Assembly: GCA_903928045.1 (NCBI GenBank)
Contig: CAIYPH010000544.1
Location: 1-9,626 of the forward strand
Reading direction: 5' to 3'
DNA: 9,626 nucleotides
Origin: an uncultured Rhodospirillales bacterium
GTDB taxonomy: Bacteria; Pseudomonadota; Alphaproteobacteria; Acetobacterales; Acetobacteraceae
Shown here: piece after piece, positions 3,663 through 9,608 of the stretch
How the letters are laid out: each line of letters opens with the position of its first letter
How positions within the stretch are numbered: the first letter of the stretch is position 1
Notes under the pieces: model-generated
What the model was told of the DNA's origin: nothing
The model's input: the letters and a program-made list of their open reading frames with translations, nothing else
Databases searched by the model: none
Translations under genes and position numbers: made by a program

Positions 3663-4628
3663 ATGCTCACCCGCCGACATCTCCTCGCGACTGCCGCCGC
3701 AACTTCATTTGCCACCGCCGCGATGGCGCAGGACACCCGCGAATTGCCCAAGCCCGGCAAGCGCGCCTGGGCCGCCAAGGTGCCGGTGGTGCGCATTGGC
3801 CTGCTCGGCGGCGAGAACGACGCCGACCGGCTGCAACGCGTGGATGGCTACAAGAAGCTGATCGAAAGCACCTTCGATGTGCCGACCAAGCTGCTCATGG
3901 CCTCCGACTATGCCGGCGTGATCCAGGCCTTCGCCGCCGGCCAGGTCGATCTCTCCTACATGTCGCCGGCGAGCTATGCCGCGGCCTGGATCGAGAGCAA
4001 AGGCAACATCGTGCCGCTCACCACCAGCCAGGAGAAGGACGGCTCGATCTCCTACGTCGCGGTGGCCTATGTGCGCGCCGATTCGGGCATCACCTCGATC
4101 GAGCAGCTCAAGGGCAAGTCGCTCGCCTGGGCCGACCCCAACTCCGCCTCCGGCTACCTCATCCCGCGCTCCGAGTTCCGCGCCATGGGGATCGACCCCG
4201 AGCCCGGCAAGTATTTCGGCCGCACCGGCTTCGGCGGCGGGCATGAGCAGGCGGTGGTGGCGGTGCTGAACAAGCAGTACGACGCCGGCGTCACCTGGGC
4301 GTCCGGCATCGGCGACGTCAACGAGGGCTACACCCGCGGCGCGCTGCGCATCATGGTCGAGAAGAAGCTGCTCGCGATGAAGGACCTCCGCATCATCTGG
4401 AAGTCCCGCCCGATCGTGAACGGCCCGCTCGCCGTGCGTGGCGATACGCCCGCGGAGTTCCAGGCCGACATGCTCGCCCTGCACCGCGCCATCCCCCGCA
4501 CCAATCCCGACATCTTCCATTCGATGGACATGGGCTCGTCCAGCGACTGGGTGCCGGTGAAGCACGCGGACTACCAGGTGTTCGTCGACATGCTCCAGGC
4601 CGAGGCGGCACAGCGTCGGAAGCCGTGA
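3663..4628 (+). CDS. phnD: Phosphonate ABC transporter, periplasmic substrate-binding protein PhnD
   Basis: The 321-residue protein starts with an export signal: T3-R4-R5-H6-L7-L8, then an Ala/Thr-rich segment ending AMA before Q23. The paired Arg resembles a Tat signal, though Sec export is possible. The mature part has PhnD-family features: VRIGLLGGEND near the N-terminus, YMSPASY at 99-105, the signature ADPNSASGYLIP at 157-168, and a GGGHE motif with H194, then D207 in YDAGVTW. By motif position H194 and D207 may match ligand-contacting residues of E. coli PhnD, but this is unaligned inference. It should bind phosphonates in the periplasm and hand them to the two PhnE permeases; phosphite or phosphate esters are possible ligands in this superfamily. 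Start support: AAAGGG (3651-3656) lies 6 nt before the ATG. A Pho box precedes it. A dyad element begins directly after its stop codon. Confidence 0.92.
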   Translation: MLTRRHLLATAAATSFATAAMAQDTRELPKPGKRAWAAKVPVVRIGLLGGENDADRLQRVDGYKKLIESTFDVPTKLLMASDYAGVIQAFAAGQVDLSYMSPASYAAAWIESKGNIVPLTTSQEKDGSISYVAVAYVRADSGITSIEQLKGKSLAWADPNSASGYLIPRSEFRAMGIDPEPGKYFGRTGFGGGHEQAVVAVLNKQYDAGVTWASGIGDVNEGYTRGALRIMVEKKLLAMKDLRIIWKSRPIVNGPLAVRGDTPAEFQADMLALHRAIPRTNPDIFHSMDMGSSSDWVPVKHADYQVFVDMLQAEAAQRRKP

Positions 4629-4765
4629 GAAGGAAGGGCTTCTTTTTGAAAAAAGAAGCAAAAGCTTTTTATCCGCTTGGCATCGCGCCCTCCATGGAAA
4701 GCACGACGCCAATGGTTAAAAGTTTTTTGGTTCTTTTTTCCAAAAAAGAACCGCTTTCTTCCTTC
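4629..4765. repeat. Dyad repeat element 1, between phnD and the first phnE
   Basis: The element begins at the first base after the phnD stop and fills most of the gap. Its ends are GAAGGAAG (4629-4636) and the exact inverse CTTCCTTC (4758-4765). Just inside each end is a hairpin. The left one, 4638-4659, has 10-bp arms (GCTTCTTTTT and its complement). The right one, 4729-4752, has 11-bp arms (GGTTCTTTTTT and its complement). The stems are T/A runs clamped by G-C pairs. On the inner side come AAAA (left) and the inverse run AAAAGTTTTTTGG (right, 4718-4730). The core starts ATCCGCTTG (4671-4679) and holds GACGCCAATGG (4705-4715), both shared with element 2. No protein is encoded. No T-run follows a hairpin as in a classic terminator. 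Confidence 0.85.
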
Positions 4766-4782
4766 TCCCCGCACCCCACGCC

Positions 4783-5655
4783 ATGACCAGCACGCTCGCC
4801 GGCGTAGAGCTGGGCTATCAGGCCCGGCGCCGTTCGCGCCGCACCGCGACGCTCGCCTATGGCGCCGTGCTGCTCGCCTGCATCGCCGTCTCCGCCTGGG
4901 TCTCCGAGGTGTTTCCCGAGACCTTGGCGCGCGGGCTGCCGCAGGTCGGTGTCTATTTCGGCAAGCTGGTGCCGCCCTTCACCTGGGAGCATCTCTTCGC
5001 CGGGCCGAAGCAGGCCGGCTCCATCGCCTACTGGTTCTACCGGTTGGATTCCTGGGGCTGGATGCTTTTCGAGACCACGCAGATCGCCGCGCTGGCGACG
5101 CTGCTCGGCGCGGTGGCCGCCTTCTGCGCGTGTTTCGCCGCCTCGGCCAATCTGGCGCCGAACCGTGCCACCTACGTGATCTGCCGCCGCGTGCTGGAGC
5201 TGTTCCGCACGGTGCCCGACATCGTCTACGCGCTGATCCTGGTCTATGCGCTCGGCGTCGGCCCGCCCGCCGGCATATTCGCCATCGCGCTGCACACCAC
5301 CGGCGCGCTCGGAAAGCTGTTCGCCGAGGTGGTGGAGAACGCCGACATGCGGCCGTGGGACGGCGTGCGCGCCGCCGGCGGCACCTGGCTGCACGGGGTG
5401 CGCTTCGCCATCCTGCCACAGGTGATGCCGAATTTCCTCTCCTACCTCCTGCTGCGCTTCGAGGTAAATGTGCGCGGCTCCACCGTGATCGGCTTCGTCG
5501 GCGCCGGAGGGATCGGGCAGGAGCTGTACCTGGTGATCGCCAAGAACTACTATGACGAGATCGGCGCCATCATCGTGCTGATCATCCTCACCGTCGCGCT
5601 GATCGACATCGTCTCGGAGCGGCTGCGGACCTGGGCGATCGGGCGGATCGCATGA
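4783..5655 (+). CDS. phnE: Phosphonate ABC transporter permease PhnE (first copy)
   Basis: This 290-residue inner-membrane protein has a MetI-type permease domain. A first membrane helix lies at about residues 23-44, a periplasmic stretch at about 45-95 follows, then several helices. The ABC-permease coupling loop (EAA-type) is DGVRAAGG through FAILPQ, about 193-213, the region that docks on the ATPase. GAGGIGQEL after it is typical of PhnE. The last helix (IIVLIILTVALIDIV) is near the C-terminus. It should pair with the second PhnE to form the phosphonate channel fed by PhnD. The ATG at 4783 matches the family N-terminus, but the 17 nt between the dyad element and the ATG are C-rich, with no visible ribosome-binding site. 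A 154-nt gap from phnD rules out tight translational coupling. Another dyad element starts 8 nt after its stop. Confidence 0.9.
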   Translation: MTSTLAGVELGYQARRRSRRTATLAYGAVLLACIAVSAWVSEVFPETLARGLPQVGVYFGKLVPPFTWEHLFAGPKQAGSIAYWFYRLDSWGWMLFETTQIAALATLLGAVAAFCACFAASANLAPNRATYVICRRVLELFRTVPDIVYALILVYALGVGPPAGIFAIALHTTGALGKLFAEVVENADMRPWDGVRAAGGTWLHGVRFAILPQVMPNFLSYLLLRFEVNVRGSTVIGFVGAGGIGQELYLVIAKNYYDEIGAIIVLIILTVALIDIVSERLRTWAIGRIA

Positions 5656-5663
5656 GGGCGGGG

Positions 5664-5818
5664 GAGGGCAGCGCTCCTTTTTTGAAAAAAAAGAGCAAAA
5701 AACTTTTATCCGCTTGTTATGTACCGCCCGCAACCATCCCGAGAGCGTACGCCAACGGCATGGATGGAACAGAAAGTTTTTTTGGTTCTTTTTGTTCACA
5801 AAAAGAACACCTTCGGTG
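5664..5818. repeat. Dyad repeat element 2, between the two phnE genes
   Basis: The element starts 8 nt after the first phnE stop. The left terminus and hairpin are degenerate: GAGGGCAGCG, then GCTC-T-run and A-run-GAGC at about 5673-5696. On the inner side come AAAAAACTTTTATCCGCTTG (5697-5716). The right hairpin (5785-5808) is perfect, with 11-bp arms GTTCTTTTTGT and its complement around a TC centre, preceded by the inverse of the A-run (5776-5783). The right outer end is eroded. The core 5721-5760 is homologous to the core of element 4 in reverse orientation, and its ends match element 1. Exact ends are uncertain by several bases. Confidence 0.8.
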
Positions 5819-5824
5819 CCTTAC

Positions 5825-6667
5825 ATGAGCGTCGCCCCCGCCGAGATCGCAGCCCTCAAGGCGCGCATGCCCGCCGCCTTCGGCGCCTCCCCCGGCCGCA
5901 AGGCGATGCGCGCCGTGCTGGCGCTGCTGGCCTTGGCCTGGCTCGTCACCCTGCTGGTGTGGTTCGACCTCACGCCCGCGCGGCTCTGGGCCGGGGTGAG
6001 TGGCCTCACCAAAATCCTCCGCCTGATGTTCCCGCCGAGCCCGGGCGAGCAATGGCTCGATATCCTGCGCGGCCTCGCGGAATCGGTGGCGATGGCCTTC
6101 CTCGGCAGTTTCGTCGCCATGCTCGTCGCCATCCCGCTCGGCTTTCTCGGCGCGCGCAACGTGGTGGTGAACACGCTGGCGCATTTCTCCATCCGCCGGG
6201 TGTTCGACGGATTCCGCGGCATGGACCAGCTGATCTGGGCGCTTGCCTTCGTGCGCGCCGTCGGCCTCGGGCCACTGGCCGGGGTGATGGCGATCACCGC
6301 CGCCGAGGTCGCGATCCTCGCCAAGCTGTTCGCCGAGGCGATCGAGAATGCCGATACCCGCCAGCCCGAGGCGATCACCGCAGTGGGCGGCAATGCCGCG
6401 CTGCGGGTGCGCTTCGGCCTGCTGCCACAGGTGGCGCCGGTGATGCTGGCGCAGTTCCTCTACCAGGTCGAAAGCAACACCCGCAGCGCCTCCATCCTCG
6501 GCGTGGTCGGCGCGGGCGGCATCGGGTTGCAGATTTCAGAGCGCATCCGGGTGGGATACTGGGACCAGGTGCTGTTCATCATCATCCTGATCCTCGTCAC
6601 CGTCGCGGTGATCGACTTCCTGTCGGCGAAGATTCGGCATGCGTTGATCGGTACTGGGTCGCGGTGA
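5825..6667 (+). CDS. phnE: Phosphonate ABC transporter permease PhnE (second copy)
   Basis: This 280-residue MetI-type permease has a first helix at about residues 30-50 (VLALLALAWLVTLLVWF), a further helix around SVAMAFLGSFVAMLVAIPLGFLGARN, and the EAA-type coupling loop from E182 to LLPQ at 199-202. GVVGAGGIGLQI and a last helix near 245-265 follow. The layout parallels the first PhnE, so the pair probably makes a heterodimeric channel; two phnE genes per operon is a known arrangement. I chose ATG 5825. The open frame reaches back to 5714, but those 37 codons lie in dyad element 2 and translate the repeat (KFFWFFLFTKR), so they are not protein-like. No clear ribosome-binding site precedes 5825. 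Dyad element 3 starts just after its stop. Confidence 0.9.
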   Translation: MSVAPAEIAALKARMPAAFGASPGRKAMRAVLALLALAWLVTLLVWFDLTPARLWAGVSGLTKILRLMFPPSPGEQWLDILRGLAESVAMAFLGSFVAMLVAIPLGFLGARNVVVNTLAHFSIRRVFDGFRGMDQLIWALAFVRAVGLGPLAGVMAITAAEVAILAKLFAEAIENADTRQPEAITAVGGNAALRVRFGLLPQVAPVMLAQFLYQVESNTRSASILGVVGAGGIGLQISERIRVGYWDQVLFIIILILVTVAVIDFLSAKIRHALIGTGSR

Positions 6668-6668
6668 A

Positions 6669-6817
6669 GCAAGGAAGCGGTTCTTTTTTGAAAAAAAGAA
6701 CCAAAAAACTTCTGATGCGAAGCGAAGCGGAGCGGCGACGGGAGCGGCAGCGGATCGGCTTCGATCCGCGAGAGCGCGGCCTGCTTCTTTTTTCAAAAAG
6801 AAGCGCTTCCTTCCTGC
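6669..6817. repeat. Dyad repeat element 3, with a variant core
   Basis: The element starts 1-2 nt after the second phnE stop. Its left arm is the cleanest in the window: AAGGAAGCG, then a perfect hairpin (6679-6702) with 11-bp arms GGTTCTTTTTT and its complement, then AAAAAACTTC. The right hairpin (6783-6804) has 10-bp arms GCTTCTTTTT and its complement, followed by GCTTCCTTCCT near its outer end. Unlike elements 1 and 2, the right arm lacks the inner T-run. The core is also unrelated: GC-rich, full of AGCGG/GGAGCGG-like short repeats, with its own hairpin GCGGATCG/CGATCCGC (6750-6769, 4-nt loop). It looks like a hybrid, or the same ends around different filler. Confidence 0.8.
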
Positions 6818-6836
6818 ACCGATCCAGGCACCACGC

Positions 6837-8651
6837 GTGACTGCTCTGCTCATCCCTGCGCTCGCAACCGCGCGGTTGCGGCTGGAACCGCTGAGCCTCG
6901 CCCATTCCGCCGGGATGTTCGCGCTGTTCCGCGAACCCGAAGTCTGCCGCTACGCCGGCCCGGCGCAGGACGCGGCCGGGCCGATCCCGCTTCCCGCCGA
7001 AACCCCGGCCGATACCGACCGCATCATCGCGCTGTTCCTGGAAGGTGCCGCGGCGGGCGGCTGGTTTCGCTGGGCGGTGACGGCGCGCGATGGCGCAGTC
7101 CTCGGCGCCGTCGGCTTCAACCGGCTGGGACACATCGCAGAATTCGCCTACCACCTCCACCCAAGCGCCTGGGGCCAAGGCTACATGCGCGAGGCGGCCG
7201 AGGCCGCACTGGCGTGGTGGCGCGGCCAGCCCGAGGCCGAGGAGGTCGAGGCCTTCATCCACCCGGAGAACGCCGCCTCGATCGGGCTCGCCATCCGCCT
7301 CGGCTTCCGTCGGGCCGGCGGCACGCGTGAGCGGCGGCGCTATTTGCTTTCCCTCGCCCCCTCTTGCCAGCAACCATCGGCACGGCCAGCATCTGCCGAA
7401 CCCAAGGAGGAACCCGCCATGATCACCGCCCGCCCCGAGGATGTCGGCCTGTCCAGCGCGCGCCTTGCCCGCGTGGATGGCTGGATGGACAAATGGGTCG
7501 CCTCCGGCCGCCTGCCCGGGCTGTCGGTGACGATCAACCGTCGCGGCAAGACGGTCTATCACCGCACCACCGGCAAGCGCAGCGTCGAGACCGGCGCGCC
7601 GATGACCACCGACACCATCGTGCGCATCTATTCGATGACCAAGCCGCTCACCTCGGTGGCGCTGATGATGCTCTACGAGGAGGGGCATTTCCTGCTCGAT
7701 GACCCCATCACCCGCGTGCTGCCGACCTGGCGCAACCAGCGGGTGCTCACCGGCGGCAACGCGCAGAAATACGATACCGTGCCCGCCGAGCGCGACATCA
7801 CCTACCGCGATTTGCTGACCCACACCTCCGGCCTCGCCTTCGGCTTCGTGGTGACGCACCCGGTCGACCAGCTCTACGTCAACAAGGGGATCGATTTCAT
7901 CTGGGTCGGCGGCCGCCCGAAGGAGCCCGTCACTCTCGCCGAGATGACCGACCGTGCCGGTGCCCTGCCGCTGATGGCCCAGCCCGGCAAGGCCTGGAAC
8001 TACTCCATCGCCACCGACATCATCGGCCGCCTGGTCGAGATCCATGGCGGCATGCCCTTTGCGCAATTCATGGCCGAGCGCGTCACCGGCCCGCTTGGGA
8101 TGGTCGATACCGGATTCTACGTGCCGGAGGGCAGCCAGTCCCGCTTCGCCGCCAACTACATCCCGGACGGCAAGGGCGGCATGCGCCTGTTCGATGACCC
8201 CACCACCAGTCAGTATCTCCAGGCCCCGCCCGTGCCCTCTGGCGCCGGCGGGCTGGTCTCCACGGCCGGCGACTACATGCGCTTCTGCCAGATGATGCTG
8301 AACGGCGGCACGCTCGATGGCGTGCGCCTGCTCGGCCGCAAGACGGTGGAGTTGATGACCGCCAACCACCTCGGCGGTGACATGGCCTCGATGGGCAAGC
8401 CGCGCTTCTCGGAGGCGAATTACGAGGGCATCGGCTTCGGTCTCGGCTTCTCCGTGATGCTCGACCCCGCCCGCGCCCAGATCATGGGCACACCGGGCGA
8501 ATATGCCTGGGGGGGTGCGGCCAGCACCGCCTTCTGGTGCGATCCCAAGGAGGAGATGGCGGTGGTGATGCTCACCCAGCTGCTGCCGAGTTCCACCTAC
8601 CCGATCCGCCAGGAGCTGCGGGTGCTGACCTACCAGGCCGTGGTGGATTGA
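6837..8651 (+). CDS. GNAT acetyltransferase domain in one open frame with a serine hydrolase
   Basis: From a GTG at 6837 one uninterrupted frame of 604 residues encodes two unrelated domains. Residues 1 to about 175 are a GNAT fold of the RimJ/RimL type: ATARLRLEPLS at the start, the acetyl-CoA loop W112-G-Q-G-Y-M117, and HPENAASIGLAIRLGF from H142. Residues 195-604 are the serine hydrolase listed separately. The joining stretch (about 176-194, Pro/Ala/Ser-rich) looks like translated spacer rather than a designed linker. GNAT-family members acetylate protein N-termini, amines or antibiotics; this one's substrate is unknown. A strong ribosome-binding site and ATG lie exactly at the domain border, so the alternatives are a true fusion, two products from one frame, or a frameshift that removed the GNAT stop codon. 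No strong ribosome-binding site precedes the GTG. Confidence 0.6.
   Translation: MTALLIPALATARLRLEPLSLAHSAGMFALFREPEVCRYAGPAQDAAGPIPLPAETPADTDRIIALFLEGAAAGGWFRWAVTARDGAVLGAVGFNRLGHIAEFAYHLHPSAWGQGYMREAAEAALAWWRGQPEAEEVEAFIHPENAASIGLAIRLGFRRAGGTRERRRYLLSLAPSCQQPSARPASAEPKEEPAMITARPEDVGLSSARLARVDGWMDKWVASGRLPGLSVTINRRGKTVYHRTTGKRSVETGAPMTTDTIVRIYSMTKPLTSVALMMLYEEGHFLLDDPITRVLPTWRNQRVLTGGNAQKYDTVPAERDITYRDLLTHTSGLAFGFVVTHPVDQLYVNKGIDFIWVGGRPKEPVTLAEMTDRAGALPLMAQPGKAWNYSIATDIIGRLVEIHGGMPFAQFMAERVTGPLGMVDTGFYVPEGSQSRFAANYIPDGKGGMRLFDDPTTSQYLQAPPVPSGAGGLVSTAGDYMRFCQMMLNGGTLDGVRLLGRKTVELMTANHLGGDMASMGKPRFSEANYEGIGFGLGFSVMLDPARAQIMGTPGEYAWGGAASTAFWCDPKEEMAVVMLTQLLPSSTYPIRQELRVLTYQAVVD
7404..7410 (+). 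promoter_or_regulatory. Strong ribosome-binding site for an internal start of the serine hydrolase
   Basis: AAGGAGG, a near-perfect Shine-Dalgarno sequence, lies 8 nt before the in-frame ATG at 7419. It is the best ribosome-binding site in the window and sits inside an open frame that began at 6837. The ATG is where serine hydrolases of this family normally start, so it argues for independent translation of the second domain. Confidence 0.75.
7419..8651 (+). CDS. Beta-lactamase-like serine hydrolase (class C / EstB-type esterase family)
   Basis: Starting at ATG 7419 the product is 410 residues, normal for the PF00144-type family. Motifs appear in order: S72-M-T-K75 (the SxxK nucleophile pair), Y195 in WNYSIATDIIGRLVE (the second catalytic motif, as in EstB-type esterases rather than the classic YxN), and W364-G-G in EYAWGGAASTAFWCDP, which takes the place of the KTG/HxG motif. 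This set fits a carboxylesterase, transesterase or D-amino-acyl/lactam hydrolase more than a resistance beta-lactamase. No signal peptide is visible, so it is probably cytoplasmic. Start choice rests on the AAGGAGG at 7404-7410 and the family N-terminus. The crotonase gene follows after 5 nt, so the two are co-translated and may share a catabolic pathway. The true substrate cannot be inferred. Confidence 0.85.
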   Translation: MITARPEDVGLSSARLARVDGWMDKWVASGRLPGLSVTINRRGKTVYHRTTGKRSVETGAPMTTDTIVRIYSMTKPLTSVALMMLYEEGHFLLDDPITRVLPTWRNQRVLTGGNAQKYDTVPAERDITYRDLLTHTSGLAFGFVVTHPVDQLYVNKGIDFIWVGGRPKEPVTLAEMTDRAGALPLMAQPGKAWNYSIATDIIGRLVEIHGGMPFAQFMAERVTGPLGMVDTGFYVPEGSQSRFAANYIPDGKGGMRLFDDPTTSQYLQAPPVPSGAGGLVSTAGDYMRFCQMMLNGGTLDGVRLLGRKTVELMTANHLGGDMASMGKPRFSEANYEGIGFGLGFSVMLDPARAQIMGTPGEYAWGGAASTAFWCDPKEEMAVVMLTQLLPSSTYPIRQELRVLTYQAVVD

Positions 8652-8656
8652 GCGCC

Positions 8657-9451
8657 ATGAACCTCACCTCCGGGCTCATCAAGGCCCGCACCCAGGGGCC
8701 GATCGGCTGGCTGATTTTCGACAATCCCGAGAAGCTCAACGCCCTCTCGCCGGGGATGGCGGAGGACGGCATCGAGGTGATCTCCGCCTACGCGGCCGAC
8801 CCCGCGATCAAGGTGGTGATCATGCGCGGCTCCGGCACGCGGGCCTTCATCTCGGGCGGCGACATCAAGAGCTTCGGCACCACGCGGGCCGACCCGGAGG
8901 CGGCGCGCATCGCGCGCGAGGCGCCGGGCAAGCTCCGGCGGATGATGCTCGACCTCGAGAAGCCGCTGATCGCCATGATCCACGGCTACTGCCTCGGCGG
9001 CGGCCTCGGCATGGCGCTCAACGCCGATCTGCGCTTCGCTTCCTCGGACGCGCAGTTCAGCGTGCCCGCTGCCGTGCGCGGCATCGCCTATGCGCCGGAC
9101 GGGCTGAAACAGTTGGTCGATCTGGTCGGCCCAAGCATCGCCAAGGACATCATGTTCTCCGCCCGCCGCCTCAAGACCGAGGAGGCGCTGCGCATCGGCC
9201 TGATCAACCGGGTGGTGGAGGCTGATGAGCTGGAGGCGGTGACGGTGGCTTATGCCGAGACGCTGGCGGCCAACGCGCCGCTCTCCATCCGCGCCTCGAA
9301 ATACTTCATCGCCCAGCTCGGCCTCGAACGCGAACAACGCGACGAGGCCCGCATGGACGCGATGCAGCGCGAGGCCGAGGCGAGCGAGGACTTCAAGGAG
9401 GCGACGGCTTCGTTTATCGAGAAGAGGAAGCCGGTGTTTAAGGGGAAGTGA
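8657..9451 (+). CDS. Enoyl-CoA hydratase/isomerase (crotonase) superfamily protein lacking both canonical Glu residues
   Basis: This 264-residue protein has the crotonase fold: GPIGWLIFDNPEKLNALS near the N-terminus, the oxyanion-hole stretch SGGDIKSFG at 66-74, and the second oxyanion motif HGYCLGGGLGMAL from about 109, then NADLRFASSDAQFSVPAAVRG. Members act on acyl-CoA thioesters as hydratases, isomerases, hydrolases or lyases. The positions of the two catalytic glutamates of classic hydratases (GGGCE and FGQPE) are Gly118 and Ala138 here. The acyl-CoA site is intact, but ordinary 2-enoyl-CoA hydration is doubtful. The ATG at 8657 is 5 nt after the serine hydrolase stop; the open frame reaches back to 8537, but that part overlaps the hydrolase and is not family-like. 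No clear ribosome-binding site is visible, so coupling to the upstream gene is likely. Dyad element 4 starts at once after its stop. Confidence 0.88.
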   Translation: MNLTSGLIKARTQGPIGWLIFDNPEKLNALSPGMAEDGIEVISAYAADPAIKVVIMRGSGTRAFISGGDIKSFGTTRADPEAARIAREAPGKLRRMMLDLEKPLIAMIHGYCLGGGLGMALNADLRFASSDAQFSVPAAVRGIAYAPDGLKQLVDLVGPSIAKDIMFSARRLKTEEALRIGLINRVVEADELEAVTVAYAETLAANAPLSIRASKYFIAQLGLEREQRDEARMDAMQREAEASEDFKEATASFIEKRKPVFKGK

Positions 9452-9608
9452 AAGGATGGCTGTTCTTTTTGTGAACAAAAAGTACCAAAATAACTTTTTT
9501 GGACTTCGTTGCCGTTGGCTTGGCTCTCCCGGTGGTTGGGAGTGGTACACACCATGGGGGTAGAATTTTTTTGCTTATTTTTTTCAAAAAAAGAAGCGCT
9601 TCCTTCCT
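9452..9608. repeat. Dyad repeat element 4, core in reverse orientation
   Basis: The element starts directly after the crotonase stop. The left hairpin (9462-9485) has arms GTTCTTTTTGT and ACAAAAAGTAC, with one mismatch. The right hairpin (9573-9597) has GCTTATTTTTTT against AAAAAAAGAAGC, one mismatch, followed by GCTTCCTTCCT, identical to the right end of element 3. Inner runs are degenerate (AAAATAACTTTTTT at 9487-9500). Read on the minus strand, the core at 9510-9548 aligns with the core of element 2: 20 of 26 positions from GTACC onward, then after a 1-nt shift an exact GCCAACGGCA. So this copy is inverted relative to elements 1 and 2. The last 18 bases of the window hold nothing I recognise. 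Confidence 0.8.

Follow-up and report, generated by a model that had tools for sequence, protein, structure and literature searches.

Gene context of the four elements

The window, by which is meant the whole 9,626-nucleotide stretch of DNA analysed, carries a phnD-like gene for a phosphonate-binding protein (3663..4628, plus strand, PF12974), followed on the same strand by two permease genes matching PF00528, one phnE1-like (4783..5655) and one phnE2-like (5825..6667). No phnC ATPase gene was seen within the window next to this phnD-phnE-phnE run (3663-6667). In two of the orthologous regions compared below, L002 and L003, additional phnE-like nucleotide matches lie nearby on the opposite strand. 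The next open reading frame (6837-8651) joins, according to Pfam, a GNAT acetyltransferase domain to a domain of the beta-lactamase family in a single frame. It contains an internal ATG at 7420 that is preceded by AAGGAGG, and its alignment with L002 covers only part of it, from 7355 onward. An enoyl-CoA hydratase gene (8657-9451, Pfam) completes the set.

The initial annotation had placed four two-armed palindromes in this region, all of them intergenic, and their positions were borne out. E1 (4629..4765) lies directly behind the phnD stop codon (4626-4628), E2 (5664..5818) between phnE1 and phnE2, E3 (6669..6817) behind phnE2, and E4 (9452..9608) behind the enoyl-CoA hydratase stop. An element had been proposed to follow nearly every stop codon, starting with that of phnD; four of the five stops (4628, 5655, 6667 and 9451) bear this out, the exception being the stop at 8651, where the next gene begins at 8657. 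The arm profile assigns lengths of 133, 155, 144 and 155 bp to E1 through E4, E1 representing a 133 bp subtype and E2 and E4 a 155 bp subtype. E4 is read on the plus strand; E2 is on the minus strand, as is E1 by the likeness of its core to that of E4, and the similarity of the three cores was judged by eye in an alignment.

In E1, the left AT-rich hairpin (4638..4659, arm model R1) and the right AT-rich hairpin (4729..4752) enclose an A/T-closed stem that bears a central hairpin (4660..4728). The corresponding left and right hairpins are located at 5673..5696 and 5785..5808 in E2, at 6679..6702 and 6783..6804 in E3, and at 9461..9485 and 9573..9597 in E4. The architecture was proposed to be common to all four, and the inverse arrangement of the two arms is indeed present throughout; E3, however, departs from the description in that its right arm is shortened and lacks the A-run and its GC-rich core is different.

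A large repeat family in Acetobacteraceae

The grouping of the four elements was assessed with a profile from which the window and its two orthologous copies in L001, the nearest relative, were excluded, while the remaining copies from G001, the nearest genome, were kept. This profile recovered all eight window arms, with scores of 48.4, 47.1, 43.5, 37.7, 35.7, 35.4, 30.4 and 19.3 bits, the lowest belonging to the left arm of E4. When the window was shuffled 100 times with dinucleotide composition preserved, the highest score was 5.0 bits. The four palindromes are thus confirmed as one family, and they are members of a large family of small mobile repeats in Acetobacteraceae. The annotation had made its proposal depend on further copies and on a better alignment than that of shuffled sequence; copies abound and shuffles score far lower, so the family stands.

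An arm covariance model (R1), built from ten arms drawn from the window and from two relatives, gave at least 150 matches in seven of the ten genomes with a relative of PhnE and none in the remaining three. An exact hairpin pattern matched 89, 133, 113, 217, 252, 215 and 284 times in seven genomes, counts in which a few palindromic places are scored on both strands, and its reversed control did not match at all. At E 1e-3, 50 of 150 Acetobacteraceae genomes, G001 among them, contain at least one arm match, and 21 of those 50 contain at least 40. A match was found in 60 of 200 genomes of an order-level sample, which overlaps the family sample, and in 2 of 385 genomes of a class-level sample, both of which are also among the 150 family genomes. 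Weak copies can escape these large scans, in which the filters were strict and few candidates were scored. Element density in the fetched stretches ranges from 25 to 150 per Mb. The values for G072 (25 per Mb) and G248 (58 per Mb) derive mostly from regular-grid sampling, together with some stretches holding previously listed matches, whereas those for G001, G002, G004, G005 and G008 lean high because their stretches were picked on contigs with known matches. Most of the genomes compared are metagenome bins without annotation.

Architecture and predicted structure

The usual copy is 132–133 bp long and comprises a purine head (GGAAGGAAGC), an AT-rich hairpin, an A/T stem bearing a GC-rich hairpin, a second AT-rich hairpin and the inverse head. 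The loci scanned yielded 82 distinct two-arm elements of 113–242 bp with a mode of 132–133 bp; the full unit mostly measures 113–190 bp and two copies reach up to 242 bp. Another 40 arms in these loci have no partner found, some of them being severed by the end of the locus. The 48 elements of 126–140 bp share a mean identity of 74%. The head consensus, taken over 158 ends, is GGAAGGAAGCG and is preceded by a purine-rich stretch. A single arm model fits both element ends, in opposite orientations, and the ends hence constitute terminal inverted repeats. At two places (L125:869-940 and L156:11307-11380) two arms stand back to back with overlapping heads, the opposite of the usual head-out pair.

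Covariation was examined in 34 of the 48 elements of 126–140 bp, namely those whose left hairpin carries no insertion. In the central helix, 14 of the 19 pairs exhibit two-sided changes, and 81% of the cells are paired. The structure as a whole is 90.8% paired, compared with 50–62% when the partner is slid by 1–3 columns and 88.2% in shuffles; because the tested structure was derived from one of the 34 sequences, the comparison favours it. In the central hairpin, therefore, the sequence varies and the pairing is kept. The AT hairpins are nearly invariant within the 34-element subset, and between subtypes their clamp differs on both sides (GCTTC/GAAGC, GGTTC/GAACC and CTCC/GGAG).

Folded as free RNA, E1 with its flanks forms a single long hairpin with a z score of -7.4, better than all 200 shuffles, and E3 yields a z score of -3.4 with one shuffle equally good. 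Pairing from arm to arm would thus compete with the three-hairpin form. On both strands, AAAAGTTTTTT-like runs follow the central hairpin, and four of the eight terminator-like sites of the window fall inside elements. The total of eight is no excess over the shuffles, which average 5.6 (sd 2.5).

Filled and empty sites

Orthologous regions were obtained via relatives of PhnE1, and overlaps and gene starts in them were read by eye. The E1 and E2 sites are filled in the window and in L001 and empty in L002, L003 and L004. At the E2 site, the latter three regions display a 4-bp ATGA stop/start overlap; the E1 site is tight in L002 and L003 and contains ~50 bp of extra sequence in L004. Since the empty sites of the relatives overlap or are tight, insertion is the simpler direction of change for E1 and E2. 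E3 is not present in L001 and L002, and L004 possesses an element behind its phnE2 with different sequence downstream. In L001 and L002, no copy of E4 follows the corresponding stop, a comparison of the left side only, as the window ends before the right flank. The empty orthologous junctions whose existence the annotation had proposed to check are accordingly present for E1, E2 and E3. Elsewhere, an element shared by G001 and G002 is missing from G003 and G030, where the empty site is an ATGA overlap, and the filled copy is flanked by ATGA on either side; a further element is common to G003, G004 and G030 and missing in G001 and G002. As read by eye, five of ten empty sites are 4-bp NTGA overlaps (those of E1, E2 and E3, one in G002 and one in G004).

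The same annotation had called for a search for target-site duplications. Direct repeats that contain the stop/start overlap flank several copies: ATGAG at E2, its left copy (5652..5656, plus strand) including the phnE1 stop and its right copy (5825..5829, plus strand) the phnE2 start; GTGA at E3 (6664..6667 and 6837..6840, plus strand), the right copy lying where the following gene starts; ATGA at the site in G002; and TGAG at E1 in L001. Four further pairs of filled and empty sites exhibit no clear flanking repeat. The flanking repeat is identical with the stop/start overlap and could therefore also result from selection preserving both genes; the repeats are suggestive of a target-site duplication. 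In one comparison of G001 with G002 (L128), the empty site carries ~120 bp of other sequence and resembles a replacement more than an insertion.

Four orthologous pairs of elements were compared by region. The arms are 83–96% identical, the flanks 82–96%, and the cores 49, 74, 74 and 92%, such that in three of the four pairs the core diverges much faster than the adjacent DNA. Template switching or conversion between copies may account for the fast change of the core. Strong purifying selection on the arms was not seen in these four pairs, in which arms and flanks change about equally fast. Two assembly features were noted in passing. At L138:6700-6845 in G002, the alignment to G001 and G003 breaks at the element and its two sides match different contigs in both genomes. 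In G030, a contig (C78, L190) starts within an element, and hence the repeats may fragment metagenome assemblies.

Position relative to stop codons

Genes were called with our own script, which reproduces the window genes backed by Pfam. A stop codon was counted when it lay between 10 bp outside and 10 bp inside the element, a tolerance set by us, at copies with both neighbours called. By this measure a stop adjoins 63 of the 75 copies of a first sample, and both stops adjoin the element at 15 of its 28 convergent junctions. The respective values in a wider sample are 72 of 107 paired copies and 16 of 33 convergent junctions, the two samples overlapping, including in two stretches of G005 and G008. 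The four genomes added in the wider sample contribute 35 of 60 and 6 of 16. A looser count that admits frames reaching more than 10 bp into the element gives 65/75 and 21/28 for the first sample and 79/107 and 20/33 for the wider one; the stricter recount was used. Uniform insertion into non-coding gaps predicts 16% for one stop and 4.5% for both stops at convergent junctions, and the nominal probabilities are 1e-32 and 1e-13 under the assumption of independence. The link is weak in G248 and in G008 (5 of 16 copies each). Among 53 arms without a found partner, a stop lies within 10 bp of the head in 20 and of the tail in 8. Divergent junctions hold 8 of the 107 copies, compared with 29% expected from their non-coding length.

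TGA accounts for 23 of 38 stops at elements in tandem junctions and 24 of 56 at convergent ends, and for 544 of 859 stops in all called genes. As a simple target word TGA was discarded because all three stop codons adjoin elements. In several copies the stop is located inside the head (TGAAGC, TAAGGAAGC). Convergent junctions that lack an element have no more than 18 bp between the stops in 43 of 93 cases; compact genomes alone therefore make tight flanks. Nonetheless, compactness does not explain why wide gaps are seldom chosen. Two copies reside on RefSeq plasmids of Pseudoroseomonas cervicalis PL22-11A, where 4–8 bp separate the BLAST-matched stretch from the annotated ends of genes: 4 and 8 bp in the case of two convergent genes, and 6 bp behind a single stop.

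Interpretation of the family

The reading that we favour, with a probability of about two in three, is that of a non-autonomous mobile family of the BIME or MITE kind, moved in trans by an inferred enzyme, whose copies land or survive at gene ends. The initial annotation had entertained REP/BIME-like sequences or MITE-like elements devoid of a transposase, and the hundreds of arms per genome, the far lower scores of shuffles and the empty orthologous sites agree with this broad assignment. A transposase supplied in trans would recognise the arms, either as hairpins in single-stranded DNA or by their nature as terminal inverted repeats, and insertion would create a short duplication of ~4 bp. 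Where host genes abut or overlap, insertions would persist if the duplication spares the upstream stop and the downstream start; copies would lie right behind stop codons because only insertions leaving stop and start intact last. Once transcribed, the inserted element would form a 3' untranslated structure with three hairpins, which probably changes mRNA decay or the ends of transcripts. A structured 3'-UTR module, the third option of the annotation, fits the position of the elements, the RNA role being putative. Three insertions occur in one transporter gene cluster and two of them are common to the nearest relative, which makes an effect on operon expression directly testable. A single arm profile suffices to detect the family, and clean empty sites reveal its individual insertions.

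It is possible, although we consider it with reserve, that the elements are instead domesticated 3' modules retained as bidirectional terminators or as stabilisers of mRNA 3' ends, genes ending right at them because the surrounding DNA was trimmed away. The A/T-closed central GC hairpin, the T-run on both strands, the compensating changes in the central stem, the terminator-like sites within elements and the scarcity of copies between divergent genes all speak for this explanation. So does the general presence of inverted repeats downstream of stops in bacteria, as described in the accessible portion of PMC13155455. However, E1, E2 and E3 split a phnD-phnE1-phnE2 run that is free or nearly free of gaps in L002 and L003 (starts by eye), and full terminators there would be harmful. 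Moreover, the window contains no excess of terminator-like sites, the tight element-free convergent junctions indicate that many gene pairs manage without an element, and in the four orthologous pairs the arms change about as fast as their flanks and the core faster.

Rather unlikely, in our judgement, is insertion directed to the ends of reading frames irrespective of the stop codon, in which the machinery itself picks gene ends instead of survivors being filtered. Such insertion could follow a cue such as translation or transcription termination and be coupled to it, and it would fill or replace junctions exactly, the heads serving as backup stops. The frequency with which both stops lie within 10 bp at convergent junctions, against the uniform expectation, points in this direction, as do the empty sites at 4-bp NTGA overlaps, where few positions are available to an insertion. 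Against it, the use of all three stops leaves no obvious DNA word, overlapping gene pairs that are conserved lend themselves more readily to comparison and thereby bias the set of empty sites, and the link is weaker in G248, in G008 and at partnerless arms. If placement at stops does exceed filtering, the family would offer a rare example of an element able to find the ends of genes.

Search for a transposase and relation to known repeats

The mobile-family reading calls for an enzyme, and the Y1 transposase domain (PF01797, Y1_Tnp) was searched at E 1e-3. It has no match in 9 of 13 element-rich genomes, many of which are metagenome-assembled and may be incomplete; four match, three of them over the cut-off, as does one of seven element-free genomes, below the cut-off. 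No arms were detected near the Y1 transposase in the five matched loci of 2.4–3.3 kb. With matches so sparse and free of arms, a RAYT is not supported as the mover. Nor were transposase-like genes seen, in translations inspected by eye, between three pairs of solo arms (L134, L128 and L156). The genes enclosed at these three places look ordinary or unknown by eye and lend no support to the notion that solo arms are the ends of a larger autonomous element.

A REP/BIME family mobilised by a RAYT and bearing an unusual tag is improbable on these grounds. The GTAG REPs, BIMEs and RAYTs, as far as the accessible parts of PMC3733652 and PMC2817692 describe them, share with the present family many intergenic palindromes, inverted pairs, conserved 5' heads that can supply a stop codon and a location mostly downstream of genes, and the high copy number, extragenic location and palindromic nature by which GTAG REPs are recognised are found here too. 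Yet the head consensus is GGAAGGAAGC and not GTAG, although GTAG does precede the head in individual copies; the hairpins are AT-rich, with a third, covarying hairpin between them; and no RAYT link was found. BIMEs consist of inverted REP units around a conserved spacer; inverted arms and a structured spacer are present here, but the arms are not GTAG REPs. The CGTC REPs of Alphaproteobacteria are also short palindromes of high copy number in the same class; the present family lacks the CGTC consensus tag. Membership in a described REP family is not supported, given the missing consensus tags and the genomes without a Y1 match. CGTC repeats are reported to be missing from Acetobacteraceae in the accessible text of PMC3733652, and the family described here adds an abundant repeat to that group. 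An independent origin of AT-rich intergenic hairpins, to which the simple T-run/A-run form of the arms and short look-alikes in Bacteroides plasmids might lend some colour, is refuted by the profile test against shuffles, and the identity among copies of 126–140 bp and the empty sites run counter to it as well.

Prokaryotic MITEs such as ERIC and Correia/NEMIS have inverted ends, are ~100–200 bp long, contain no gene and leave empty sites. The present family resembles them in all four respects; it differs in the hairpin inside each end, in a target duplication that is suggestive only and in that no parent transposon was found. RIME elements of rhizobia are alphaproteobacterial intergenic elements with palindromes, and the resemblance is one of description alone. 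The genus Lichenicola belongs to the Acetobacteraceae. For Lichenicola cladoniae, a generic RepRanger scan counted 1,369 REPs, a bare number with families not specified in the accessible part of PMC12306157. The accessible part of a paper on Acetobacter pasteurianus mentions REPs and MITEs in general terms only (PMC4686929). No description of this repeat family in Acetobacteraceae was recognised in the literature covered, largely its openly accessible part.

Rfam gave no match at the four elements at E values up to 1; its sole match in the window, at 7496-7590, is far under the gathering score. With plasmid and phage searches, 23 records from Bacteroides, Parabacteroides and Enterococcus and one Microviridae record matched 24–28% of the query and were dismissed as short AT hairpins, and E2 alone as the query had no match against plasmids. 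A second palindromic repeat family of ~220 bp was encountered at L115:9473-9694 in G001 and at many places in G001–G004 and G030. It consists of GC-rich hairpins with similar GGAAG heads and has many both-strand matches per genome.
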